A stretch of 64,000 bases of DNA from Tricholomella constricta (Eukaryota; Basidiomycota; Agaricomycetes; Agaricales; Lyophyllaceae): contig JAACJP010000009.1 of the NCBI GenBank assembly GCA_013368375.1, forward strand, positions 434,001 through 498,000, read 5' to 3'. A program made the position numbers and the translations under genes. Each line of letters opens with the position of its first letter. Within the stretch, counting starts at the first letter, position 1. Of the stretch, positions 32,440 to 46,455 are shown in pieces. Below the pieces are notes generated by a model. That model was not told the DNA's origin. It ran no database searches and was given only the letters and a program-made list of their open reading frames with translations.

Positions 32440-32768
32440 CTCTAGTACGGTTGCCTGGGAGTCCAAGGTCTATTTTCAAATCCCGCTCAAATAATTCAGT
32501 CGACCTCAAAATGTCTAAAGCTTCTGCAGTTCACCACCGTGTTTAATATATGGATATCTGGTCTTTGAAATGCTGGTAGATGATGGGTGGATACTTACAG
32601 ATGGCACCGATACTTCTGCTCATGATTTTCGAGTATTTTGGGAGTCAACATGACATTGACAAGGTGTTGGAAAAATGTGCAAAATCTACCATGTAAAATC
32701 CTCCTCCTTCTGATGCTAGAGGGACTATTCATATTTATCTTGACTCTTTAGAGAGTGCCGCCCTATGT
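32440..32768 (+). repeat. Left arm of a diverged long inverted repeat
   Basis: The reverse complement of 46076-46455 matches this segment in the same order with roughly 75-80% identity by eye. Shared blocks include tattttcaaatcccgctc, tctttgaaatgctgg, tattttgggagtcaa and tagagagtgccgc. The arms are 13.3 kb apart today but would have been only about 320 bp apart before the LTR element inserted, so this looks like a foldback or MITE-like element. Confidence 0.7.
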
Positions 32769-33086: not shown

Positions 33087-34141
33087 TGATAGAGCTAGAA
33101 GGCCTGTAGGTGCTGTGCACAACAACAAAACAACTAACAACTATGGGGGGCGAGAAATGTTAAAAGTTCCCAAACACGCGAGTGTGCAGGGTTTGAAAGT
33201 GGTGGTGGGATGAGAGTAAAGACGATCCGACTCGTAATTAGTCGAGCCGACGGCGACGCGATAGAATACGATCGTTCCCAGGCGGAACGGGTCGGTAACA
33301 TGACTTTTGTGTCGGTTGTGCGACAACGAGACGAACGAGACGAATACGAAGAACTCACGGGTTCGGGCGACGGTTTACGAGACGACAGAGACGACGGTTA
33401 CGAGGTTTACGACGGTGGCGACGGGTTATACGATGAGAACGATGCGGAGACGACAGAGACGACGGTTTTGAGCTATTAACTCTGAGAGTGAGGGAAAATA
33501 CGGGCTGTAATTCACTGGGGGAGGTAGGTAGTACATGGGTATGTTTTTATACTATGTGACCGACTCGCCTCTCGCAGGCCGGCGAGACAGGTGTTTTACT
33601 GGTTTATTGAGACAAGCGTCGCCAAGCTGGGTACCACGCGGCGCTTTTTAGAGAGTGTGGCGCTCCTTGGCTCGGCAAAGGGGCTTTTGATCGGTTCGAG
33701 GCGTCGGGTCGGATGTGTGATTGGTGGCGGCCTTTCGATCGGTAGTGGCTCTTGGAGGCGGAACTCCGTGGTGCGGCCGGATCCTCTCTGCGAATGGCTG
33801 GGCAAGGTGTTTCCTAGGGTAATTTCAAATCGGGTTTGGTTGTCGCCGGGTTGAGACCTTGGCATACAAACGTGCGCGGTCGCTGACAGATTATACGGCG
33901 TTCCGTGCTCCGTGTACCCAGGGAGAAGAACTGGCGTTTCAAGTTACTCTGTCTCTTGGTCGGTACGTCGGTCGTTTGGTCGTATTGTCGGTCGGTCTGT
34001 CGTATTGTCGGTCGGTCTGTCGTATTGTCGGTCGGTCGGTTTAGCGCTTCGGTCGTATTCGGGAGTGTGTTCGTTGTGGCGCAGCGGTTGAGGTCCGTAT
34101 TATGGGCTGGCTCTGTGTATAGCGCGGGACGGTGCTCATCA
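33087..34141 (-). repeat. 3' LTR (1055 bp)
   Basis: It is the direct repeat of 45001-46075. In element orientation it starts TGATGAGCACC and ends CTCTATCA. It lacks one of three copies of a 20-bp unit present in the other LTR. Substitutions relative to the 5' LTR are at 33301 (T versus C), 33617 (C versus T) and 33974 (G versus A). Open frames inside it (for example 33210-33479, +) are GAC-rich simple sequence and are not called as genes. Confidence 0.93.
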
Positions 34142-34160
34142 TCTCCTCCTTACTTGAAAT
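34142..34160 (-). promoter_or_regulatory. Polypurine tract adjoining the 3' LTR
   Basis: In element orientation, aagtaaggaggaga lies directly before the 3' LTR (TGATGAG). This is the position and composition expected of the primer for plus-strand DNA synthesis. A 7-bp stem/4-bp loop hairpin (ccgactg-tcct-cagtcgg) follows on the plus strand at 34161-34178. Confidence 0.75.
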
Positions 34161-34263
34161 ACCGACTGTCCTCAGTCGGCCCCGTGCCTCGGTCAGGGGG
34201 CGTATGTCTTGGAAAGGGGGGACTGGGATAGGAGGACGTGGCGGTGCCGACGCGCTGGTGACA

Positions 34264-34272
34264 TATATATAT
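34264..34272 (+). promoter_or_regulatory. Candidate TATA box of antisense gene A
   Basis: tatatatat lies about 35-40 bp upstream of the ATG at 34306, oriented for plus-strand transcription. It lies inside the retrotransposon but outside the LTR, implying a promoter independent of the LTR. A TATA match alone is weak evidence. Confidence 0.4.
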
Positions 34273-34305
34273 CTATCCAGGTTCTCGTTTGGTCCACTCA
34301 TCGTT

Positions 34306-35608
34306 ATGTCGAGACCTCCTGTCGATCTTCAGCGCACTCTCCGCTTCTTGGAACGAGACTGGGACGAATGGCAATCGCTGTCGGCCGACTCGCCTCGCTA
34401 CGCGCGCACTCGTGTGCTGCAATACTTGTCAAACGGCTTCGAAGTGCTTAGGTCGCCGGCAGCTAGTCCCTGGCGTTGGATGTGGCGCGACGAGGAAGAG
34501 GCATTGTTCAACATCTGGTCTACGATCAAGTCCGACCCCGAATGGTCCGGGCGGTTCGCGGACCTAGAACCGAGTGTGCGTTCGTTCTCCGGTTATTTGG
34601 TCGTTCCTGCAGGGTATTAACGCGCTAGTTGGTAGTCCGACCACCCCGACCGAGAGTCGGACGCTCGGGAGCGTATCCGCGCCGCCTCTGCTGGAGAAGA
34701 GGCAGCGTCTGTTGTGCGGGAGCGTTCGTGCGCTTCCTCTGTTGGAGACGGGGACCAAGAAGAGTCTGTCGTCGAGATCTCTGGGGAGTCGGTATTGGCA
34801 GCACAGGGGAGGCGACACGGTTTGTGGCTGGAGCGGCTTGAGGAATTTAAGAAGGAATATCCTGAGCATTACACTCGTAGCGAAGCAGTAAGTCGTCGGT
34901 TCTCGTGTAGCCTTGTTTTCCTGCTCATTTGTTGTTTAGTGCGATCGTTGTGTGAGCTACGCTTTGGACTGCGTTCAGCGTAGCGACATTGATACTTGCG
35001 CGGTTTGCGAGATTCAATCCCGACCATGCGAGACGAACGAGGTGGGGTCGTTTCGGCCAGCTCCGCACCAGTTTGTGTCGTGCTCAGGAGTGGGACACTT
35101 TTGTGACGCGTGTATGCCCCCTCCGCTGTTCGACGATGTCCAATCGCCCGATCTGGCGAGGGCCGCCCAGCGCCTTGTCGTGACTCGTTCTGCGGATTCG
35201 GTAGACCGGGGTGCGGGTCTCCTTTATCAGGGTCCGGTGTTTCGCCCTGAGGACTTCCTTCGTAACGAAGATTTGCGTGGTCTGGGCTTCACCCAGCCGT
35301 TGTCGGTTATTTCGCGGTTCGGTCTTGCCGATGTAGATCGGGCGCTGTCGGCGCGCACCGTTTTCTTGCGTACTTTGGTCCAGGAAATTCAAGTCCTTGA
35401 ATCGCGCCAAGAGGTCATGCGTTCGTCATCCCGTCAGCTTTACGAGCAGGTCGTGTCTACGTCGTCGGCCCTTGACTTGCTTCAGGCCCGGCGCGCAGAG
35501 TTAGTTGGTGCGTCTGCGATGGGTAATTCGAGGAGTGGGGGCAGCGGCAGTGGACGCGGTGTCGGCGGTGGCGTACGCGACGATAGTGGCGAGGGTTCGT
35601 CGCCTTGA
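34306..35608 (+). CDS. Antisense retrotransposon gene A, Zn(II)2Cys6-like protein (396 residues)
   Basis: Three exons, 34306-34575, 34636-34887 and 34940-35608, with both introns in phase 0. Exon 1 gives a tryptophan-rich domain (RDWDEWQSL, PWRWMWRDEEEALFNIW). Exon 2 is charged and ends LWLERLEEFKKEYPEHYTRS. Exon 3 opens with CDRC and the cysteines run C-x2-C-x6-C-x8-C-x2-C-x6-C, the spacing of a fungal binuclear zinc cluster. There follows a conserved block (FLRNEDLRGLGF, ADVDRALSARTVFLRTLVQE) and a coiled-coil-like helix, then a glycine/serine-rich tail. It is a paralogue of gene B. Function unknown: DNA or RNA binding is inferred from the cysteines, but the basic residues usual after the second cysteine of true Zn2Cys6 activators are few. 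Confidence 0.75.
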
Positions 35609-35826
35609 CTTCGGGTTTGTCGTGTTTTGCGGTCGGGTTGTGTTCGTTACCGGTCGCGTATTCCGTATATACCTATTTTGTTGTTCGGGCCCTAAAATTG
35701 GGTCGTTCTTTTATAATTCGAACTTTTCGTGTTTTAAGTGGCGCAGGTCGGTTCGTTGTGTCGGTCGGTTTTGTGGTTGGCGGTGTCGGTTGCTAGTATC
35801 GGCTGTCGTTTTATCTGTAGTTCCTG

Positions 35827-35845
35827 TCTCCTCCTTACTTGAAAT
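35827..35845 (-). promoter_or_regulatory. Second copy of the polypurine-tract sequence
   Basis: The 19-base plus-strand sequence at 34142-34160 is repeated exactly here, and the match extends with a few changes through the following hairpin and cagtcggcccg. It lies about 160-180 bp upstream of gene B, as the first copy does for gene A, so it is part of the unit that was duplicated. Confidence 0.8.
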
Positions 35846-36003
35846 GCCGGCTGTCCTCAGTCGGCCCGGGGACCGGCCGAAAAAATTCTAGAACTGACGC
35901 GTGTGTGGCGTGAGATGGCGGTGGCGGTGCAACAGAATTTGACCTCGCGTCAAGTTCTCAAGGACCCTCTGTCTTTCTCGGCTCCCTCTTTCTCGCTCCC
36001 ACC

Positions 36004-38093
36004 ATGTCCGTCGGTATGGCTAGCCTCCCGCCAAACTACGCGCTCGTCCTCGAGGACCTGCAGGGCGACTGGGACGACTGGCGAGCACTGCCTCCCGATG
36101 CGTCGCGTAAGACACGCCTCGCCATCCTCGAAGGTCTGTTAGAGGGAGTTACGGCGTTACGTGCCCAGGGGGGCGATGAACCGCGTTGGGTGTGGAAAGA
36201 GGAGGAGTCTGCGTTGCGGGCCATCTGGGCCGTCATAGGAGAGGATGCTGAATGGAAGGTGCCCTTTGGTGGCCTAGAGCCTGAGGTATGTCGTTGTTCA
36301 GTTGTTTTGACTGGCCCGTGGGTGGGCTGCTCATCCAGCCTCCCCAGAGTGAGAACGCGCGCCGTCGTCGCGCACGTCGTGCTCGCCTAGGTGCGGCGGC
36401 CAATATACGCGCTTCACAGTCGGTGGCGCCCGAGGACCTGCCAGCGTCGTCGACTGTGGCGGTTCTACCAGTCGACCTGCGTCTGCCCACGACCGATGCC
36501 AAGGCTACGGTCCCTGTGGGAGCTGGAAGTGCCCTCCCAGCGTCCGCGACGGTTGACGACGCGCCCCTTCGTCCGGAGTCGGGTGCGCGATCAAGTGGTA
36601 TCGCTGGCGCGGCTGCGGCTGGTGGAGATACCCATACCGTAGCGGGTGTCGTGCAGGAAGCTGAAGCGGCGACAGTTATGGCGATGGCGGAGCGGATGGG
36701 GCGGGAAGCCCTGGGTCCGATGCGAGCCCCCCTCCTGTCGCGCTCACCTCCGGCGTCCGACGTCGTTATGCTCGATCTGGCACCCCCCGCGTCGCCCGTC
36801 GCTGCTGCTCCTCCAAAGGGGAAGGCTAAAGCTAGGGCCAAGGTGACGAGCGTGCGCGACCCCGAATATCGCCCAGTGACGCTACCCCATATGTCGGCCG
36901 GAGGGGGACGTCCGAAAGCGGGTGCCGCGGGTGAGTTCGCGTTTGTTTCACCCGTCATTTTTAGTCCGATCGACGGGCTCCCACTGACACCTTCAGTAGG
37001 TGGACCACCCGTCGTCCTCATCGACACGGTGCCGGCGCCAGCTAGCCGCAAGCGGAAGCGCGCTGTCGACGACGAAGGCGAGGGGTCCGCGCCTGAGGTA
37101 GTGGCGATGGTCAGCAAGGCAGAGAAGGTGCCTGGGGCGGTCAAGGCGGGGAAGGCAACTGGTAAGAAGGGGGCCACGGCGGCCAAGAAGCGGGAGCAGA
37201 CTACGGCAGCGAGGAAGGCCGCCGCCGAGTTTAAGTGGCTGGAGCGACTAGAGGAGTTCAAAGTCGCCCACCCGAACCACTTCATCCGCGACGAGCCGGT
37301 AAGTTGTCGTGTGCTTCGTCGGGTCGGTCGCATTCTGACGAACTTCTAGTGCGATCGCTGCGCAGACGCCGCCGTGGATTGTTTCCAGAAGCCTGAGGGC
37401 GGGATCTGTGCGCGGTGCAAGATCTTCTCCAAGCGCTGCGAAACGGTGAAATACAAGACCGACGTGGAGGTTGGCAAAAAGTCGCGCCCCCGGAGTCGTC
37501 GTCGCGTCGCCTCCAAGTCCGTTGTGGAGGACTCAGAGGAGGACGTGGAGGTCGTGTCGCCCACTGTCGCGCGTCGCCGAGCGCGTGACTTAACGGCGCT
37601 CAGTGACGAGGACTTCGGGCCGACTGCAGGTGCTTTTCAGTCCGCCCAGTACGCCGTCGAGGGTTCGGACATGGGCGCCAGTTTTGTTCACGGTGGACGC
37701 GTACCCCGCGGTACCAGCCTTTCTCGTAATCGCGATTTGGATGGCCTGGGATACGCGACCGATTTGTCGCGTGTCGCCTCTCTTTCCCTGGGGGACGTCG
37801 ACCGGGCCTTGTCGTCGCGTAACGCACTACTGCGGTCGCTAATCCAAGAGGCGCAGCTATGGGAATCGCGTCAGGAGATCGCCCGCTGGGGCCTCATACG
37901 GGTGCGTGAGCAATTCGCAGGGACGGCGAACGCGATCTCTGCACTCCGTAGGCGACGCGCTGAGTTGATGCGAGCGGCTGGCGTCGAGTTCTCGGAGAGC
38001 GACAGCGGCGCGGATTCGGAGGAAGAAGCAGTGGAGACGGATGAAGAGGACGACGAAGAGGAGGCGGGAGGGGACTTGGAGGTTGGGGAGTAG
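36004..38093 (+). CDS. Antisense retrotransposon gene B, Zn(II)2Cys6-like protein (658 residues)
   Basis: Three exons, 36004-36285, 36348-37298 and 37350-38093, all phase 0, placed exactly as in gene A. Exon 1 repeats the tryptophan-rich domain (LQGDWDDWRAL, PRWVWKEEESALRAIW, FGGLEPE). Exon 2 is much longer than in gene A: about 290 alanine/proline-rich residues with a basic patch (RRRRARRAR) and SRKRKRAVDDE, possible nuclear localisation signals, before WLERLEEFKVAHPNHF. Exon 3 opens CDRC with C-x2-C-x6-C-x8-C-x2-C-x6-C, then the shared RNRDLDGLGY and GDVDRALSSRNALLRSLIQE blocks, a long helix (RRRRAELMRA), and an acidic C terminus (DEEDDEEEAGGDLEVGE). An acidic tail with a zinc cluster recalls transcription regulators. 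This is inference only. Confidence 0.78.
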
Positions 38094-38468
38094 TTGTAGG
38101 TGGGGGTCGGCGTCGTGTCTGGACTCTTCTTGGTGTCGTGTTTGCGTCGTTCCTCCGCTAGAGGCGTCGCACGTATATATCTCGTGCTGTGGACTTTGTC
38201 GGTGCCCGTAAATGGGCTTTTCTTTTAAAAAAAATGTAATATATGTCGTGTGGTTCTCCTGCGGAGTCTGGCATTAAGTGTGTGATCTTGGAACTTGAGT
38301 GGGGGTTTAAAAGAACGAAAGGAAAGACTGTCGTTCAGGGTGTTTGGACTTCGCGAACGGTCGGGTCGTGGGACGTTGGGTAGATTTAGGGCGTGAAGAA
38401 ACCAGAGAGGGATAGATATCGAAATGTTTATTAAAAAGGGGGTATACGGGTAGCCGGGAGTCGAGCGG
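38094..38468. other. Convergent 3' region, gene B / pol
   Basis: This 375-bp interval lies between the gene B stop (+) and the pol stop (-). It includes an A-rich stretch (ttttaaaaaaaatgtaatat, 38224-38243) that could hold polyadenylation signals on the plus strand. No coding sequence. Confidence 0.5.
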
Positions 38469-41400
38469 CTAGTTTTGCTCGCCTTCCGATTCGGAGTCGT
38501 CGCCTACGACTTCGGGTCGGTCTTCATCGTCGGTGATTGTTGTTGCTTCCAGTTCTCTGAGTCGCTTGGTGTCTATGTCCAGAGCGCTGTCGGGTAGGAG
38601 GATGTTGTTTCGCGCGAAGTAGGGCGCGAGTCTGAACGCTGCTACAGGCCGGTGTAAGACGGTGCCGTCCAGTTCGCAGAGGATGTAGGCGCCCCCGCGG
38701 TTGCGCGAGATCACGACGAGCGGTCCTAGGTATCTAGATCGCATTTTGCGGTTGAGCGACTTCTCGATTTTCGTGTTGCGCATCAGGATGAGGTTTCCGC
38801 GTTTAAAGTTATAGTCGCGCAAGGTTCTGGCGTGTTTAAGTTCGAAGCGAATCGCCGCTTGTCGTCGCGCTGCGTATACGTCTGAATGCAGTCGTTCTAG
38901 GTCGGTCGCTCGTTTCTGTAGGGCGATCGCGCGACGTGTCAAGAGGTCGGTGGAGGACAGGATAGAGTCGGGCGGTGGTTGTAGGTACGTGGCTTCGACG
39001 ATATCGAGTGGTAGAAGGGGTTGGGTTCCTGTCGCGGCGTAATAGGGGGAGCACCCCATTCGCTTGCGGATCGTGACGCGTTCAGCCCAGAAGACTGAAT
39101 ACGCGGATTGTGACCATTTACTTTCGTTTCCGTCGGCGGCTTTGAAAAGGGATTGTCGTACGTCGAAATGGGATCGCTCGACGAGCCCGTTGGCTCTAGA
39201 GTTATAGCCCGAGATTCGAATATTGTGTATGTGGTATTTCTTTGTGAGGTGTTCCGCGGCTTTGATGAAGGCTGGACCGTTGTCGGTTACGATTTCGCGC
39301 AGTCCGCCCCACCGGCAGATGATGTCTTCATACATCCAATCGCCGAGGGTGCGACTGTTTTCCTTTCGGAGCGCGCGCCATTCAGGAAAGTGAATCAAGG
39401 AGCAACGACCTTGGACAATGTATTTGAAACCATTCGACGGCGGTAGGTGCATAGTGTCGATGTACATTTTTGCAAACAGTGGCGCGGGTGTCGCAACGAC
39501 CGGGGGGATCAGGACCTTGGTCGTTTGCTGGATCTGGCATATGTGACATGTCTGTACGAACCACACGACGTCGGCCCGAACATTAGGCCACCAGAAGCGT
39601 TCGAGCAAGGTTGCGCGTGTCGCGTAGAAGCGCTTATGTCCGAGGTTGTCGTGGACGGATCGCAGAATCTCTAATCGTGCATTGGGGCGGGCGACTAGTT
39701 TATGTGCGCCTTGGCTATCTCTTCTCCAGAGTCGTGTTCCGTCTAGGAAGAACCCGGTGGCGTATCGGATGAAGGTGGCGTACTGATCGTCGGACATGCC
39801 TTCTGGCCGTTCGAGGTTGGTCAACCATTGTCTAACCGCCTCTATGCGTTGGTCTTGGGCTTTAGCGGCGTCGGTCCTGGGTACGTCGTCGTATGACATG
39901 TCGGTCGAATTCGCGTTTGGGTCGGTTATTCCTGTATCGTCGTCGGTACGGATTCTGGGTTGTCGTGGGGGGTCGGCTGCGAGTTCGTGAGTCGTTGAGT
40001 CTGGCGGTACCGTGTCAGTGTATACTGCCACCATCTCCTCCTTACTTGAGATCTGAGCCATAGCGAAGATCTGACACACATGCAACGGCGACGGCGGTCG
40101 TGGCAGCGGTTGAATAATGTGCATGAGTCCTTGCATGCGGTCGACCCAATCTTCGAAGTCGGCTTCTTCTGCGTCGTAGTTGTCGGCTGGATCGTCGGGT
40201 TGTCGTGGGCGCCGGGACAAACCGTCGGGTCCATGGAACGTGCCTTTAACATGGACAAGTTCGAAGTGGAACATGAGGACAGATACGATCCACCTGTTTA
40301 TGGAAGCTGACGGCTGGATGTCGGGGTTGGAGAGCATTCCTTTAATGTAGCGCGCGTCGACTTCGACGACCAAGTTGCGGACGCCTATAACGTACAGTCG
40401 TAAAGCGCCAAGCGCCCGAAATAGGCCGTAAAATTCGAGTTTTGGTTGAGAGAACCGTGATTCGCGGTCGTTCAGTGTAATGGAACCGAACCGATTGTAT
40501 CTGCGTCGTTTCCGATCGACGGGGTCGGCTTGACAGAGGTAGAATCCGACTGCTATGTGGGAAGTGTCGACGGCCAGGATGACGGGGTCGTCCGAGGCGT
40601 AGTCGATGGGTACGAGGGGTTTCGCTTCTGCGATCGCCTCGACGATGTCACGCTGTGCTGCGATCTGGTCGGGGCCGAACTCGAAGACTGCGTCCTTGCG
40701 GGTTAGTTTTACGAGGTGGTGTGCGCGATGAGCAAAGTTTTTGACGAATATCCTTAGTACTCCGACCGTTCCTAAAAACGCGCGTAACTCTGATAGGGTG
40801 GCGCACGACTTCCAATTACGCAGTAAAGCGAGTCGGTCCGCGTCGGGTATGCGACCATTGGGCGTGCAGACGTGTCCGAGGACTTTAAATTGTGGTGCGC
40901 ATAAAATCAGCTTCTTGCCGGAGAAGGTGCCGCCGCAGTACTTCATGCGCTGGAGGATTCGGTTGACGTTGTTGAAGAACTCCCAGATCGCGAATCGCAC
41001 GTCGGCATTGTCGGGGTGTGTTTTCGGCAATCCTGTGTCCGGGTCGGGGTACCAAGTTGCTGGTCCCTTTATAGCAGCATCGTCGATATAAGGCAGTGTA
41101 TAGTCCGGGATCTCTGGTTGCAGGATGTGAGTGACGTCGTCGTGGAAGATTGGGACGGAGTTGGTCCAGCCCATAGGTAAGGTGACTAGGCGTAACGCGC
41201 CGAAAGGTGTTTGGAAAGTGGTAAGGTCGCGCGACGATGGTGCGATTAGCCGTTCGTCGTAGCCGACAAATAGGTCTAACATTGCGCCACAAATGCGGCC
41301 GGCGAATTGTTCAGCGACGTGGTCTGGTATCGGAGTGACCCCCGAGTGTCGGATAGTTACTCGGTTGAGCGGTTCGAGGCTGTGGACGAGGCGGAACTTG

Positions 41401-42233
41401 CCATTTTTCTTTAGGGTGCAAAACCAACGGGATCGGTAGCTGGAGTTGGACGGTTCGTAAACGCCAGCGGCGAGTTTAGTTTTGATAATGTCGCAAACTT
41501 CATCGTAGATGCCAGGCGGTATGGGGATATTTTGTTCGATCCAGGGTGTGTGTGCGACGACCGGGATATCGATAGGGGGAAAGAAATCCGATCGAAAACT
41601 ACCGCGTTCGGAATCGTCCCATGCGAAAGCGAGATTCTGCTTACACATGAGGTCGTGCATAATTGCTCGTTCGGAGGGCGTTAAGAAGTCTGGGTGTTCA
41701 CGGTCTAAGTCGTCTTTTCGCTCTAGAGTGTAGCGGCCGGTGGGTTGGAAAGGGGGCGGGTTGGGCAGCAGAGTCGGCATGTCGGCGAGAGGGTCGCCCA
41801 ATATTTTGCGCTCGATGCGGAAGTGGTCGGGACAACTTGCTATAATCGATCGCACTTTTTGCGCTACTGGTTTGTACTTCTTTTTGGTTTGTACGCCTTT
41901 GATTTTCACCACGAAGGCGTTGGTGGCGGCGTTGGTCAGGGATTGGGTGTGGCGTCCACTATGGCGCTCGTTGTTCGGTAAAATAGTGCAGAGGGTCGTT
42001 CGTTTTTGAGGGTTAGAGTTGGTATTAACGGATTGGTCGGCGATTGCTGGTGCGGTTAGTTCGGATGCCGCGACGTAGAGTGAGGCTAGTTGCGCGTCGT
42101 AGGTGGCGTCGCTATTAAATTCGGTCGGTAGTTCGCAGAAAGAAAGGACAGTCGGGGTAAAGCTTAGTGGGTCGTACTCGAGGAGGAGTGCAAGATCGCC
42201 GTGATCTCGACTTATTTCCTCGAGAGTATACGA
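38469..42233 (-). CDS. pol: Retrotransposon pol: reverse transcriptase, RNase H, integrase
   Basis: The frame is open for 1254 residues from the -1 frameshift site at 42233-42239 to a stop at 38469-38471; it has no Met needed at its start. Reverse transcriptase follows in order: LKKNGKFRLVHSLEPLN, FQTPFGALRLVTLPMGWTNS, and the catalytic YIDD in LPYIDDAAIKG. RNase H starts at VILAVDTSHIAVGFYL and includes KLEFYGLFRALGALRLY. Integrase has the HHCC finger (HDNLGHKR then CHICQ), catalytic residues in YIDTMHL, VTDNGPAF and GLVERSH, and a GPY/F-like module (RSRYLGPLVV). I see no chromodomain. Protease sits in the preceding gag frame. No stops or obvious inactivating changes. Confidence 0.92.
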   Translation of the reverse strand, partial: SYTLEEISRDHGDLALLLEYDPLSFTPTVLSFCELPTEFNSDATYDAQLASLYVAASELTAPAIADQSVNTNSNPQKRTTLCTILPNNERHSGRHTQSLTNAATNAFVVKIKGVQTKKKYKPVAQKVRSIIASCPDHFRIERKILGDPLADMPTLLPNPPPFQPTGRYTLERKDDLDREHPDFLTPSERAIMHDLMCKQNLAFAWDDSERGSFRSDFFPPIDIPVVAHTPWIEQNIPIPPGIYDEVCDIIKTKLAAGVYEPSNSSYRSRWFCTLKKNGKFRLVHSLEPLNRVTIRHSGVTPIPDHVAEQFAGRICGAMLDLFVGYDERLIAPSSRDLTTFQTPFGALRLVTLPMGWTNSVPIFHDDVTHILQPEIPDYTLPYIDDAAIKGPATWYPDPDTGLPKTHPDNADVRFAIWEFFNNVNRILQRMKYCGGTFSGKKLILCAPQFKVLGHVCTPNGRIPDADRLALLRNWKSCATLSELRAFLGTVGVLRIFVKNFAHRAHHLVKLTRKDAVFEFGPDQIAAQRDIVEAIAEAKPLVPIDYASDDPVILAVDTSHIAVGFYLCQADPVDRKRRRYNRFGSITLNDRESRFSQPKLEFYGLFRALGALRLYVIGVRNLVVEVDARYIKGMLSNPDIQPSASINRWIVSVLMFHFELVHVKGTFHGPDGLSRRPRQPDDPADNYDAEEADFEDWVDRMQGLMHIIQPLPRPPSPLHVCQIFAMAQISSKEEMVAVYTDTVPPDSTTHELAADPPRQPRIRTDDDTGITDPNANSTDMSYDDVPRTDAAKAQDQRIEAVRQWLTNLERPEGMSDDQYATFIRYATGFFLDGTRLWRRDSQGAHKLVARPNARLEILRSVHDNLGHKRFYATRATLLERFWWPNVRADVVWFVQTCHICQIQQTTKVLIPPVVATPAPLFAKMYIDTMHLPPSNGFKYIVQGRCSLIHFPEWRALRKENSRTLGDWMYEDIICRWGGLREIVTDNGPAFIKAAEHLTKKYHIHNIRISGYNSRANGLVERSHFDVRQSLFKAADGNESKWSQSAYSVFWAERVTIRKRMGCSPYYAATGTQPLLPLDIVEATYLQPPPDSILSSTDLLTRRAIALQKRATDLERLHSDVYAARRQAAIRFELKHARTLRDYNFKRGNLILMRNTKIEKSLNRKMRSRYLGPLVVISRNRGGAYILCELDGTVLHRPVAAFRLAPYFARNNILLPDSALDIDTKRLRELEATTITDDEDRPEVVGDDSESEGEQN
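40034..40052 (-). promoter_or_regulatory. Third polypurine-tract copy, inside pol (possible central PPT)
   Basis: The plus-strand sequence tctcctccttacttga recurs here exactly (16 bases; the next three are gat instead of aat). It codes for ISSKEEM, between RNase H and integrase. Position in mid-pol recalls the central polypurine tracts of lentiviruses and Ty1, which prime a second plus strand. That role here is inferred. Confidence 0.6.
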
Positions 42234-45034
42234 AAATTTACGTCGGTCTTGGGGCGGCGACGTTGTCCGCGCGCGAAGGTCGGTATCGCGATGACCTCTC
42301 GAGTGTTCGGGTCGGTGATGGTTATGATCGTATCGTCGGCGGATCTCGTTTTCACGTTAGAGCAAGTAAGTACGTCGAACGGGCGGCCAAGGAGTATATC
42401 GTATGCGGGATTGCGAATGACGTGCATTTGGAGGTAGAGCGTGACCTCTCCTATCGTACAAGGTACGTTTCGTGCTAGACCGAGCGACGGGTCGGTTGTT
42501 CCATTCGCTGATTGCATCTGCAGCACTATAGTTGGGTCGTATTTGACCCCTAGTCCATGGCAAACTTCTTCCGACATGGCTATGATCTGGCACCCGCTGT
42601 CGACGATGCTTTCTATCTGTTCTCTCGCGTCGACCATTATCATGATCGACCTGAGTGCGTGCGATTCCATTGCGACGATCAGTCGGTCCGGATGCTCGCC
42701 AGGTAGTAGTGTCTGGTAATACGTGTCGTAGATGTCGCCGGTGACTAGCGCTCCGGGCGGTGGCGTCGCGTTGTCGCTGTTGGATTCGCAAGGTAGTGCG
42801 TCGAGTTCCTCGATGAACGCCGACGTGGGGACTTCTTGGTATACCGTTGCGAGGTTGCCGGCGACGATACGCTTCGGTGTATTAGCTTCCCTAAACTTTC
42901 CGCGAACCTCTGGCGCTACCCCGCAGAGTTCTCGAACTGTGACCGGTATGGTGGCGTCGAGTGCGCGTTCGAACAGAGTCGTTGATTTGGTTGGATCTGT
43001 AATGGGCGCTTGTGTGCGATACGCACTGTCGGCTTTCGCCCTCTCCGTGGCGGCTAAGTTTCGCGTGGTAGGGGGGATGTATCGGTTCTCAGGAATGTTA
43101 GAGAAAGGGTGTACTGGAGTTTGGTCGTGGGCATTGCCTGTGGCGTCGGTCTTGGTACTGGGGATCAGAGGTATGTTGGCCGGTGGCGGGGGAGCCTTGG
43201 CTTGGCTTTTCGTCGCGTCCGAGACGGGCTGCGACGCGGGCGCTGATTTGTTGACTGGTGCGATCCTTGGTTGGTCGGCGTCTTGAACGGTTTCGACCGT
43301 GACGGGTCGCTTTTGCGGTGCGCGGCTAATAAGTTCTACGCCGTCGAACACCTCTTTCCTTGCGCGCAGGGTGTTGAGTTCTCGTTCTAACACGATCATG
43401 CGATCCTCGATTTTCAGGTCATGGTCGGTGACGTCGTTAAACTGTAGTATTTCCAACATCATGCTTTCGGTCGGGTTCGCGTTCGCTGATAGCTGTCCTG
43501 TCGCCATTTGGCCGGGGTTGCGTCTGTGCCACTCGTCTAACTTGTCTTTTATGTATCGGCCTGGAGTTCCCGCCGGTATGCGCGCGCCGCTTGGTAGGCC
43601 TATTTTGTTGTCGTCGGTTCGTCGGCAGCGTCCTTCGGTCGCGTATGTTTGATGTATGGGACAGTTAGGAATATAATGTCCTTCACCACCGCAGAAGTGG
43701 CAGTTGTCATTAGGTGACTGATTCGGTCGGCCGCCGTCGCCTCCTTTGTCTTGTCCTAAGCGTTGGATATGTTGTTCCAACAGGTTGATTCTTTCGTAGA
43801 GCTCTTCCAACTTGAGGGGCTGTCCCGTGTTAGGCGACTTGGTCGCGCCCGTTAACGACCCGCTTGGCGCGATCGTAATTTGTGGGGGCGCGCCCGATGG
43901 CGCTTCCTGTCGTTGGCCGGCGTTTGTTCCATGGAGGATATGTTCAGCCGCAGCGCGAACGGTTTCCGTGGCGTAGGGGTCGTCGGGATGGTGGTTCGGG
44001 TTTAGGATCTCGAGCCTGCGATGGATCTTTGACCATAGATCGGACTGGAACGCGCGACGGAATTGGCGGTCGCGTTCGTTTATCGAAAGTCGGTTTTTGC
44101 TGACAAGGAACTGGGTAACAGAAAGGAACTGTCGGTAATATTCCCCGAGGTCACTATTCGACTGGATCCCGAGTCGGTGTCGTTCTCTGATCAGGTAGTC
44201 GAGGTCGGCCATTGAATACTTTCTTTCTTCGCTTGCGCCTGGGTAAAGCGCCATTATCGCTTTTCGCCAGTCGTCGTATGTGGTACCGACTGCGAATTCG
44301 TCAAGTTGCTCCCACAGATCCGCGGTATCGATGTCGGTGTATCGCGTAGTGTGCGTTTTCTTTTCTTGCTCATCTACGACGTTACACTCGATGAAGAGAT
44401 GATTTAAGTCCGAAAAATATCGGCGCAGTTCACGCGCGCGTTCGGGTACGAACGTCGGCGCCGAGCTTTGTCCGCGTGCGGGCATCGGCTTTATAATGAT
44501 TGGTGGTTGTGCCATGATAGATGGTATTGGTTTCGGGATAGGGGACGGGGAGGGGGAATACGACGGTGAAGAAGAATCTGAGATTTCTGGGGTCGCGGGC
44601 GATAGATAGGGGAGTCTAAATTCAACTCCTTGATCGGTGGTAGGAGGTTCCGACGCAAAGGGGTCGAAAGCTAGGTCGGGTTGCGCGGTTGGTTCGGGGA
44701 GCGGTGTTTGATCGGTCGGGGTAGGCGACGGTAGTGTCGACGAAGGGCTATAGAAGAGCGGGCTGAGGTTGTTATGGATCGCGCGGTGTGGGGTTACTGA
44801 GCGGAAGAACGGGGAGAGCGATTCTGAGTCGGTGTCGACTTGTCCGAGAGCAGCGCGAATTTCGGCACGGAGGGTTCGGGCTTTAGCTTCTTGTCGGGTT
44901 GCGGGCGGAATGGTCGACGAGTCGTAGGTTTTTATGAACAAGAGGAATGAGGTTGCGTGTTCGGCGGTGGCTTTTAAAACCCTCGCGGTGGGCTCCAGAA
45001 TGATAGAGCTAGAAGGCCTGTAGGTGCTGTGCAC
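42212..45034 (-). CDS. gag: Retrotransposon gag-protease
   Basis: The frame is open from within the 5' LTR (45034) to a stop at 42212-42214, up to 940 residues. The true start may be the later Met of MAQPPIIIKPMPARGQ (about 44515), since the upstream part covers the primer-binding site. A capsid-like helical region (ERARELRRYFSDLNHLFIEC, DWRKAIMALYPGASEERKYS) leads to a CCHC zinc knuckle, CHFCGGEGHYIPNC (C-x2-C-x4-H-x4-C), for RNA packaging. A proline-rich linker follows. The C-terminal part is an aspartic protease with catalytic DSG in IESIVDSGCQIIAMS and the flap/hydrophobic motif AYDILLGRPF. Pol follows in the -1 frame. Confidence 0.9.
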   Translation of the reverse strand: MHSTYRPSSSIILEPTARVLKATAEHATSFLLFIKTYDSSTIPPATRQEAKARTLRAEIRAALGQVDTDSESLSPFFRSVTPHRAIHNNLSPLFYSPSSTLPSPTPTDQTPLPEPTAQPDLAFDPFASEPPTTDQGVEFRLPYLSPATPEISDSSSPSYSPSPSPIPKPIPSIMAQPPIIIKPMPARGQSSAPTFVPERARELRRYFSDLNHLFIECNVVDEQEKKTHTTRYTDIDTADLWEQLDEFAVGTTYDDWRKAIMALYPGASEERKYSMADLDYLIRERHRLGIQSNSDLGEYYRQFLSVTQFLVSKNRLSINERDRQFRRAFQSDLWSKIHRRLEILNPNHHPDDPYATETVRAAAEHILHGTNAGQRQEAPSGAPPQITIAPSGSLTGATKSPNTGQPLKLEELYERINLLEQHIQRLGQDKGGDGGRPNQSPNDNCHFCGGEGHYIPNCPIHQTYATEGRCRRTDDNKIGLPSGARIPAGTPGRYIKDKLDEWHRRNPGQMATGQLSANANPTESMMLEILQFNDVTDHDLKIEDRMIVLERELNTLRARKEVFDGVELISRAPQKRPVTVETVQDADQPRIAPVNKSAPASQPVSDATKSQAKAPPPPANIPLIPSTKTDATGNAHDQTPVHPFSNIPENRYIPPTTRNLAATERAKADSAYRTQAPITDPTKSTTLFERALDATIPVTVRELCGVAPEVRGKFREANTPKRIVAGNLATVYQEVPTSAFIEELDALPCESNSDNATPPPGALVTGDIYDTYYQTLLPGEHPDRLIVAMESHALRSIMIMVDAREQIESIVDSGCQIIAMSEEVCHGLGVKYDPTIVLQMQSANGTTDPSLGLARNVPCTIGEVTLYLQMHVIRNPAYDILLGRPFDVLTCSNVKTRSADDTIITITDPNTREVIAIPTFARGQRRRPKTDVNFRILSRK
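42233..42239 (-). promoter_or_regulatory. Candidate -1 ribosomal frameshift heptamer, A AAT TTT
   Basis: In gag phase the codons are gtA AAT TTT, fitting X-XXY-YYZ. Slipping back one base enters the pol frame (next codons TCG TAT ACT), which stays open to the pol stop. The gag stop lies 18 bases beyond the heptamer. A downstream structure was not evaluated. Confidence 0.6.
44979..44998 (-). promoter_or_regulatory. Candidate primer-binding site
   Basis: Read on the minus strand, TGGAGCCCACCGCGAGG begins three bases inside the 5' LTR end, the usual place for pairing with the CCA 3' end of a tRNA. It would need a tRNA ending GTGGGCTCCA. I could not assign the tRNA. Confidence 0.55.
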
Positions 45035-46075
45035 AACAACAAAACAACTAACAACTATGGGGGGCGAGAAATGTTAAAAGTTCCCAAACACGCGAGTGTG
45101 CAGGGTTTGAAAGTGGTGGTGGGATGAGAGTAAAGACGATCCGACTCGTAATTAGTCGAGCCGACGGCGACGCGATAGAATACGATCGTTCCCAGGCGGA
45201 ACGGGTCGGTAACACGACTTTTGTGTCGGTTGTGCGACAACGAGACGAACGAGACGAATACGAAGAACTCACGGGTTCGGGCGACGGTTTACGAGACGAC
45301 AGAGACGACGGTTACGAGGTTTACGACGGTGGCGACGGGTTATACGATGAGAACGATGCGGAGACGACAGAGACGACGGTTTTGAGCTATTAACTCTGAG
45401 AGTGAGGGAAAATACGGGCTGTAATTCACTGGGGGAGGTAGGTAGTACATGGGTATGTTTTTATACTATGTGACCGACTCGCCTCTCGCAGGCCGGCGAG
45501 ACAGGTGTTTTACTGGTTTATTGAGACAAGTGTCGCCAAGCTGGGTACCACGCGGCGCTTTTTAGAGAGTGTGGCGCTCCTTGGCTCGGCAAAGGGGCTT
45601 TTGATCGGTTCGAGGCGTCGGGTCGGATGTGTGATTGGTGGCGGCCTTTCGATCGGTAGTGGCTCTTGGAGGCGGAACTCCGTGGTGCGGCCGGATCCTC
45701 TCTGCGAATGGCTGGGCAAGGTGTTTCCTAGGGTAATTTCAAATCGGGTTTGGTTGTCGCCGGGTTGAGACCTTGGCATACAAACGTGCGCGGTCGCTGA
45801 CAGATTATACGGCGTTCCGTGCTCCGTGTACCCAGGGAGAAGAACTGGCGTTTCAAGTTACTCTGTCTCTTGGTCGGTACGTCGGTCATTTGGTCGTATT
45901 GTCGGTCGGTCTGTCGTATTGTCGGTCGGTCTGTCGTATTGTCGGTCGGTCTGTCGTATTGTCGGTCGGTCGGTTTAGCGCTTCGGTCGTATTCGGGAGT
46001 GTGTTCGTTGTGGCGCAGCGGTTGAGGTCCGTATTATGGGCTGGCTCTGTGTATAGCGCGGGACGGTGCTCATCA
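45001..46075 (-). repeat. 5' LTR (1075 bp)
   Basis: It is the direct repeat of 33087-34141, with three rather than two copies of gtcggtcggtctgtcgtatt near 45900-45965 (+). It begins TG and ends CA. It should carry the promoter for gag-pol, including the TATA box at 45458-45465. Confidence 0.93.
45458..45465 (-). promoter_or_regulatory. Candidate LTR TATA box
   Basis: The minus strand reads TATAAAAA in the 5' LTR, about 457 bp before the LTR end in the direction of gag. The same sequence is in the 3' LTR near 33544-33551. A transcript starting 25-35 bp later would have R-U5 of roughly 430 bp. Confidence 0.5.
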
Positions 46076-46455
46076 GCGGCACTCTCTAGGAAGGTGAGGT
46101 ATATGTGGTTAGCCCCTCTAACATCAAGAGAGAAGGAGGAGGGTAATTTACATGCTGCCTCTTGCACACTTTTTTCACATCTTGTTAGGATCATATTGAC
46201 TCCCAAAATACCCTAAAATCATGAGAAGAAATACAAAAGCGATCTGTGGGCACCTAACCATCATTTGCCAGCATTTCAAAGACCAGATATGTACATATAT
46301 TACACGGTAATGGATTGTAGAAGCTTCAGATACTTTGAGGTGACACGAAATTATTCGAGCGGGATTTGAAAATAGACCTTGGACTTAGTCTCCGGTAGCC
46401 GACCTTAGTACAGATGACAGTCGATCTGTTATACCTTGGACTCCCAGGCAACCGT
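46076..46455 (-). repeat. Right arm of the diverged long inverted repeat
   Basis: It pairs with 32440-32768 in reverse complement, starting right at the retrotransposon boundary (gcggcactctctagg). Relative to the left arm it contains an extra stretch of about 50 bp (around 46383-46436) bordered by a repeated ccttggac, which looks like a small insertion with a short duplication. Confidence 0.65.

Follow-up and report, generated by a model that had tools for sequence, protein, structure and literature searches.

Antisense zinc-cluster-like gene pair in a Ty3/Gypsy retrotransposon family of Tricholomella constricta, and exchange of one of its members between copies

Accessory open reading frames (ORFs) antisense to gag-pol are already known as such from retrotransposons of plants and Botrytis. 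In plant Gypsy elements, including Grande (gene23) and RIRE2, the product of these frames is predicted to bind DNA in 97% of clusters, and the role of these predicted DNA binders is given as unknown (PMC11963269); for Grande gene23, an own upstream promoter and a nuclear protein have been reported (PMC7264820). In fungi, brtn has been described as an additional antisense gene of the Boty-like Gypsy elements of Botrytis cinerea (PMC7264820, PMC8365987). Two more distant systems are VANC of the Arabidopsis VANDAL elements, an element-encoded, sequence-specific and diversified protein that binds the noncoding DNA of its element (PMC5735166), and HBZ of human T-cell leukemia virus type 1 (HTLV-1), a regulator that this retroelement encodes antisense as an accessory gene and whose product is a nuclear protein (PMC11963269). 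In this work, we describe a Ty3/Gypsy element of the agaric Tricholomella constricta that carries two antisense genes, A and B, each encoding a zinc-cluster-like protein; it lies at positions 33087-46075 of a 64,000-nucleotide stretch of contig JAACJP010000009.1 (positions 434,001 to 498,000 of the forward strand), the whole of which is referred to as the window.

Genes A and B share position and orientation with the plant Gypsy antisense ORFs, and differ from them in having a C6 zinc cluster instead of the TRP28 domain; a tandem pair and gene exchange go unmentioned in the available portion of the plant report. The brtn gene (Zhao et al. 2011) resembles A and B in being an antisense extra gene of a fungal Gypsy element, whereas its host is an ascomycete and, going by the title of the paper, it is a single gene, the comparison being by description only. 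The likeness to VANC is also one of description; VANDAL elements are DNA transposons, and the best-conserved motif associated with A and B does not diversify with the protein. HBZ belongs to a retrovirus, and no homology with A and B is expected. It is a bZIP-type protein. The sequence-only reading, made from the letters of the window, knew of no zinc-cluster gene pair in a fungal element; none was found in the open-licence literature searched, and the main text of one survey of fungal long terminal repeat (LTR) elements (PMC3248453) does not contain the word "antisense". An antisense gene in a fungal Gypsy element has its precedent in brtn, which the sequence-only reading did not mention; nor did it remark on the exchange of B or on the module shared by both genes. 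As far as these searches show, what is new is the zinc-cluster pair, the exchange of one of its members, and a module combining a polypurine tract (PPT) with a palindrome.

Genes A and B are tandem paralogues of three exons each, located between pol and the 3' LTR on the plus strand, antisense to gag-pol, with phase 0 introns of 51-62 nt. Gene A (34306-35608; exons 34306-34575, 34636-34887 and 34940-35608) encodes 396 amino acids (aa), and gene B (36004-38093; exons 36004-36285, approximately 36348-37298, and 37350-38093) encodes 658. Exon 1 specifies a Trp-containing domain common to both proteins (38% identity), exon 2 a variable linker, and exon 3, which opens with CDRC in both genes, the C6 motif, a variable part and a long helix. 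The antisense tandem arrangement and the three-exon, phase 0 structure had been recognized beforehand in the window, together with the exon sizes, the spacing C-x2-C-x6-C-x8-C-x2-C-x6-C and two blocks common to both genes, WLERLEEFK and DVDRALS, and all of this was recovered; for exon 2 of B, 317 codons result from an acceptor whose last base is 36347, which gives a better alignment with other B types, and the one 9 bases upstream (320 codons) was discarded for its poorer alignment. The predicted introns behave as genuine ones. All 26 copies examined for intron 2 of A carry a GTAAG donor there, and in none of them is in-frame read-through possible; for B read-through is impossible in 27 of 28, a count in which the donor was wrongly assigned in loci L018 and L019 (the L018 donor is likely GTGAGT). 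Of the A exon 3 matches, 52 of the first 53 with at least 75% identity from query residue 1 lack an internal stop, and one of four additional fragments at this identity has one. As a separate observation, the B exon 3 matches in L017 and L029 stop near residue 65 and resume later, in another frame in L029, through either an extra intron or a frameshift.

The 44-Mb assembly (118 contigs) was searched with the third exons, yielding at least 169 matches for A and at least 150 for B, values that are not exact copy numbers because the two genes cross-match and scoring covered only part of the candidates. Among 76 tabulated reverse transcriptase (RT) loci of the family (≥85% identity), 64 have a B exon 3 in antisense orientation within 9 kb on the 3' side, at a median distance of 2.4 kb, and none of 14 divergent RT loci (41-46% identity) has an antisense B within 9 kb; the ORF lists of two of these 14, the divergent Gypsy loci L041 and L042, contain no A/B-like frame. 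The antisense A/B pair is a regular feature of the family, and the expectation that homologues would lie at the same antisense position in other elements was borne out. Against a family-wide association weigh the 12 family RT loci without an antisense B, and the 17 of 82 tabulated B loci for which no antisense RT is listed within 12 kb, two of which begin no more than 12 bases from a contig end (C12, C57). Divergent Gypsy RT sequences (46% identity) at G000:C4:287063, C25:51093 and C53:71151 stand in open frames of 2192, 2052 and 1905 aa, respectively, with no listed antisense B.

Both A and B evolve under purifying selection as proteins, and the dN/dS values are well below 1 across copies, unlike the value near 1 that the sequence-only reading would have taken as refuting its interpretation. 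Values are Nei-Gojobori (NG86) medians over pairs, which are descriptive because pairs share branches. They amount to 0.289 for exon 3 of A (25 distinct sequences) and 0.241 for its exon 1 (18), and for exon 3 of B, which falls into at least five divergent types (t1-t5), to 0.139 in t1 (12), 0.120 in t2 (3), 0.175 in t3 (6), 0.273 in t4 (3) and 0.153 in t5 (3). The same measure gave 0.038 for RT (13) and 0.050 for integrase read in frame (15 loci), in contrast to 2.6 for a pol segment read out of frame. Constraint within B is strongest in the C6 part, followed by the helix: pN/pS in t1 (11 sequences, L024 left out) is 0.02 for C6, 0.38 for the basic stretch that follows, 0.22 for the middle part, 0.15 for the helix and 0.36 for the tail, and in t3 (4 sequences, L023 and L039 left out) 0.13, 0.38, 0.26, 0.20 and 0.40 for the same regions. 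For A, the values are 0.24 in C6, 0.33 in the middle, 0.26 in the helix and 0.63 in the tail.

Each gene is preceded by a conserved module in which a PPT adjoins an 18-bp palindrome of the form CCGACTG-N4-CAGTCGG, with ends CCG-N12-CGG. Module 1 (34142-34182, plus strand) corresponds to the 3' PPT bordering the LTR, a 41-bp sequence (TCTCCTCCTTACTTGAAATRCCGRCTGTCCTCAGTCGGCCC) that includes the palindrome CCGACTGTCCTCAGTCGG (34162-34179), starting 144 bp ahead of the A ATG; module 2 (35827-35867, plus strand), upstream of gene B, repeats it with a second PPT copy and the palindrome CCGGCTGTCCTCAGTCGG (35847-35864). The two modules are 95% identical, against only 38-39% protein identity between the coding parts of A and B. 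The distance from PPT core to ATG is 127-186 bp where a start codon could be assigned, the t2 and t4 copies of B being without an assigned start, and the palindrome lies approximately 110-170 bp from the start codons. Between module 1 and the A ATG there is a TATA-like stretch (34262-34274, plus strand), read in the sequence and aligned across copies. Pattern searches of the genome gave 103 matches for PPT plus palindrome, 137 for the palindrome alone and none for the reversed patterns; judged by eye among 100 of the 137 palindrome sites, most stand beside A/B genes, and C15:7749, C20:302867 and C11:592508 are among the few possible exceptions. Over 25 distinct B-side instances, conservation reaches 0.97 in the core columns and 0.45-0.70 beyond 10 bp on either side, a profile in which the flanks are lowered by indels because it is ungapped, and in which only the palindrome part is unbiased because the search pattern fixes part of the PPT. 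The 7-bp inverted repeats are perfect in 36 of 51 instances, among them those of L035 and L036, where the palindrome is altered on both sides (CTGACTG...CAGTCAG) with its symmetry kept. Covariation of the palindrome with B type was expected and not borne out, small changes in t3 being the exception. A third PPT-like copy (40034-40052, minus strand; 18 of 19 bases) sits inside pol without a palindrome, as it also does at several of the loci compared, and for this reason the element may have a central PPT.

Whole B coding cassettes move between otherwise near-identical backbones, presumably by recombination between copies. Compared with the window element, loci L017-L021, L023 and L027 show 87-96% DNA identity in the LTR, exons 1 and 3 of A and the alignable pol segments, and 49-73% across the B segments, where exons and introns drop alike. 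The clearest pair is L018 (t2) and L023 (t3), which are 99-100% identical over approximately 2 kb of pol, with an RT dS of 0.00, and 86-97% identical in LTR and A, against 51-65% in B; identity drops close to the B start codon, about 120 bp past module 2, to recover near the pol end. The opposite pattern is displayed by L023 and L037, with 72-90% in LTR and A and 94-98% in B. Loci L023 and L027 have two modules ahead of B, one of each kind, an arrangement expected at an exchange junction. In an RT tree of 14 rows, monophyly of t2, a type picked for the approximately unbiased (AU) test after the dS table was known, was rejected (p-AU 3.8e-5), and in the B tree t1, t2, t3 and t5 each form a clade (starred), t4 receiving a support of only 75. 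This B tree, a quick one for which the program warned of long branches, placed A inside the t2/t4 part, hinting that A may have arisen through duplication of a B gene.

Regarding the predicted proteins, all six Cys stand at fitting spacing in every third exon examined (26 of A and 28 of B, located via their first three Cys), and they are invariant in an alignment of eight B and two A sequences. The spacing rule of Zn2Cys6 proteins is C-x2-C-x6-C-x5..12-C-x2-C-x6..8-C, and classical members have an RK-rich loop between Cys2 and Cys3. As in Gal4-type Zn2Cys6 factors (PF00172), A and B have the C6 spacing and a candidate site ended by CCG and CGG, and the t5 B of L033 matched the Pfam Zn_clus family with an E-value of 0.0015 (19.0 bits, covering all six Cys; cut-off 21 bits). 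Among the six sequences searched, none reached the curated cut-off: t3 gave a weak match of 11.7 bits, and no Zn_clus row was returned for the t5 of L034, t2, A or the B of the window (t1). Thus, kinship with Zn2Cys6 proteins, as originally read from the motif, is likely, if formally short of the Pfam cut-off, one match being near it, one weak and the rest absent. Unlike the Gal4-type factors, A and B mostly lack the basic loop, carry C6 in mid-protein, with more than 100 residues between it and the long helix; none of the other Pfam domains typical of Zn2Cys6 factors appeared in the Pfam search of A and B, and the rows Lentiviral_Tat (A exon 1, E 0.0047, below cut-off), DUF4637, MIF and ThiD2 were taken as chance. 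The linker of B holds a KRKR stretch followed by an acidic patch; KRKR precedes C6 in the window and at all but two of 12 B loci compared, the exceptions being RKHKR (L032) and KRKC (L034), and an acidic tail follows the C-terminal helix in the compared sequences of t1-t4. Short stretches of exon 2 of B such as SVVEI look like SUMO-interaction motifs.

In an AlphaFold model of B exon 3, confidence is confined to one helix of 63 residues (147-209); in the C6 region it places helices at 2-12 and 21-26, with a predicted local distance difference test (pLDDT) score of about 50 or below. Foldseek with this model returned six rows, none at E 0.001, and a PDB profile search a single irrelevant row (E 1.8). 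Homologues were also sought outside this genome, as the sequence-only reading had proposed; in a weak search that scored approximately 8000 best-word candidates, A alone and a four-row composite alignment found no relative. A ten-row exon 3 alignment found one protein among approximately 8000 best-word candidates, D9615_010527 of Tricholomella constricta, which matches exon 3 of the L033 t5 B at every one of 225 residues and has P joined to CDRC at the predicted acceptor. Its annotation joins this exon to an unrelated upstream stretch bearing DUF6534, and the gene model is likely wrong.

The best reading of these data is that A and B are nuclear DNA-binding regulators of the element. Palindrome, TATA-like stretch, basic stretch, C6, helix and acidic tail together read, at the level of sequence, as the anatomy of such a regulator acting on the element that carries it. 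Zn2Cys6 transcription factors bind CGG-type sites, often palindromic, and a candidate site of CCG-N12-CGG form lies upstream of both A and B. We propose that the two genes would be transcribed antisense to gag-pol from their own promoters and spliced as predicted, each giving a nuclear product composed of the N-terminal Trp domain encoded by exon 1, a linker that varies and is basic in B, and the Zn2Cys6-like cluster, with a long C-terminal helix that would serve dimerisation and, in B, an added acidic tail. Homo- or heterodimers would bind the palindrome next to the PPT, ahead of the start codons, and binding would autoregulate A and B, thereby activating or protecting the element, with gene B as the variable module exchanged by recombination between copies. 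That A and B regulate the expression of their own element via the palindrome seems to us somewhat better than an even proposition. Regulation of element or host transcription, or counter-silencing, had been suggested from the window, and would apply here as an interpretation; among the possible targets, conservation of the palindrome favours promoters of the element itself.

Several observations weigh against this interpretation. The RK-rich loop between Cys2 and Cys3 is absent in most types, gene A has no KRKR stretch, and constraint on its C6 part is no stronger than on its helix; the AlphaFold model, built from a two-row alignment, has a mean pLDDT of 53 and no fold match. The group-2 elements L033 and L035 have an A-like protein without C6 that keeps exon 1 and the helical C-terminus, which would suit a partner without a DNA-binding domain of its own, and a third-exon scan of L033-L036 and L039 recovered the B third exon only. 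The inverted repeat is broken in 15 of the 51 palindrome instances, severely so in three, each of which belongs to a t3 element. The symmetry permits an RNA hairpin as well, in which several variants would form G-U pairs on the gene-sense side. Moreover, the palindrome is nearly constant upstream of highly divergent B types, at odds with a separate DNA target for each B, and this disfavours type-specific targets within it; the protein that mainly reads it may be A, which is conserved in group 1, or the B types may be distinguished by their partner and not by their DNA site. Combining regulation with segment exchange, B could be a specificity cassette, interchangeable in an idiomorph-like manner and determining the set of copies that are jointly activated or shielded, comparable to the exchangeable immunity regions of lambdoid phages, a tentative idea that we consider rather improbable. 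The same combination offers the equally conjectural possibility that the extra PPTs in pol and before B split plus-strand synthesis, the segment between them (pol end plus B) being the unit of exchange.

Other explanations account for part of the data. A and B could be anti-silencing factors comparable to VANC, which would bind the noncoding DNA of the element and remove repressive marks, the B types diversifying in an arms race with the host. This agrees with a conserved noncoding motif whose matches lie mostly in these elements, with the strongly divergent B types on near-identical backbones, and with CGG-bearing 20-bp tandem repeats of variable number in U3, given that VANC target motifs are tandem repeats varying between related elements (PMC5735166); however, the co-diversification of motif and protein expected of a VANC-type system is not seen in the main palindrome, the motif to which this argument applies, and we hold the explanation to be unlikely rather than implausible. 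Alternatively, the module could be an RNA or replication signal, an extra PPT with a hairpin, with other roles for A and B, such as nucleic-acid chaperoning or the targeting of integration. In favour of this, the 3' PPT is itself part of module 1, the pol copy is a PPT without palindrome, and palindrome variants often retain G-U pairing on the gene-sense strand; but the pol copy also shows that a PPT is kept without the palindrome, which in turn is conserved before B, away from the LTR edge, and the similar distance from module to ATG in both genes suits a promoter element. We find this account distinctly doubtful.

Fungal hosts hold many Zn2Cys6 genes, and A and B might be selfish passengers, host transcription-factor genes captured without service to the element, with their introns retained as expected of antisense genes. 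Purifying selection through many copying rounds and retention in most of the tabulated copies argue against it, and among the matches listed in a genome search made with exon 3 only, no clear non-element relative was seen, a result qualified by the 17 of 82 tabulated B loci without a listed RT within 12 kb; we consider it very improbable. Ordinary fast evolution of B in place of exchange could draw on the divergence of B exceeding that of RT even within one type (median dS 0.70 in t1 vs 0.28 for RT over all types), and it is contradicted by the near-identical pol of L018 and L023, by the placement of t2 on the RT tree and by the joint drop of B introns and exons, so that it appears scarcely tenable. 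Regulation of the element by its own A and B proteins continues to be the interpretation that we favour.

The remaining anatomy is that of a young Ty3/Gypsy element, as had been read from the sequence; LTRs, primer binding site, PPT, target-site duplication and domain order all agree with it. Three substitutions and one unit of a 20-bp repeat distinguish its 3' LTR (33087-34141, minus strand, 1055 bp) from its 5' LTR (45001-46075, minus strand, 1075 bp), both carry TG...CA ends, and the target-site duplication is 4 bp, GCGG. The primer binding site TGGAGCCCACCGCGAGG (44981-44997, minus strand) adjoins the 5' LTR, and was called by position and its TGG start, without a tRNA match. The gag-pol region (38469-45073, minus strand), delimited by Pfam and ORF reading, comprises two frames, one for gag, zinc knuckle and protease (42212-45073, minus strand) and one for RT, RNase H and integrase (38469-42356, minus strand). 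In these frames Pfam recognized a protease, an RNase H and the zinc-binding domain of integrase, RT being assigned, without a Pfam row, from its YIDD motif and position; the order protease-RT-RNase H-integrase, with protease close to the end of the gag frame, RNase H at residues 561-692 and the integrase zinc domain at 892-944, fits Ty3/Gypsy. No Pfam row for a chromodomain, as found in the chromovirus clade, appeared in the frames of the element, where a divergent one could escape detection. In U3, the CGG-rich 20-bp tandem repeat occupies 33970-34045 and 45880-45975, its copy number varying between the two LTRs and between copies. On either side of the element (32460-32761 and 46076-46385) there are arms of inverted repeats, 37, 195 and 51 nt long and 75-97% complementary, the innermost right arm beginning at 46076, the first base past the LTR; the insertion target was probably a palindromic DNA transposon or a miniature inverted-repeat transposable element (MITE).

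The family described here bears on the self-regulation of LTR retrotransposons beyond gag-pol. With its numerous intact copies, a clear candidate binding site and B genes naturally replaced on near-identical backbones, it makes specificity, autoregulation and anti-silencing directly testable. A modular accessory gene swapped between retrotransposon copies would, if true, represent a route for the diversification of selfish elements.

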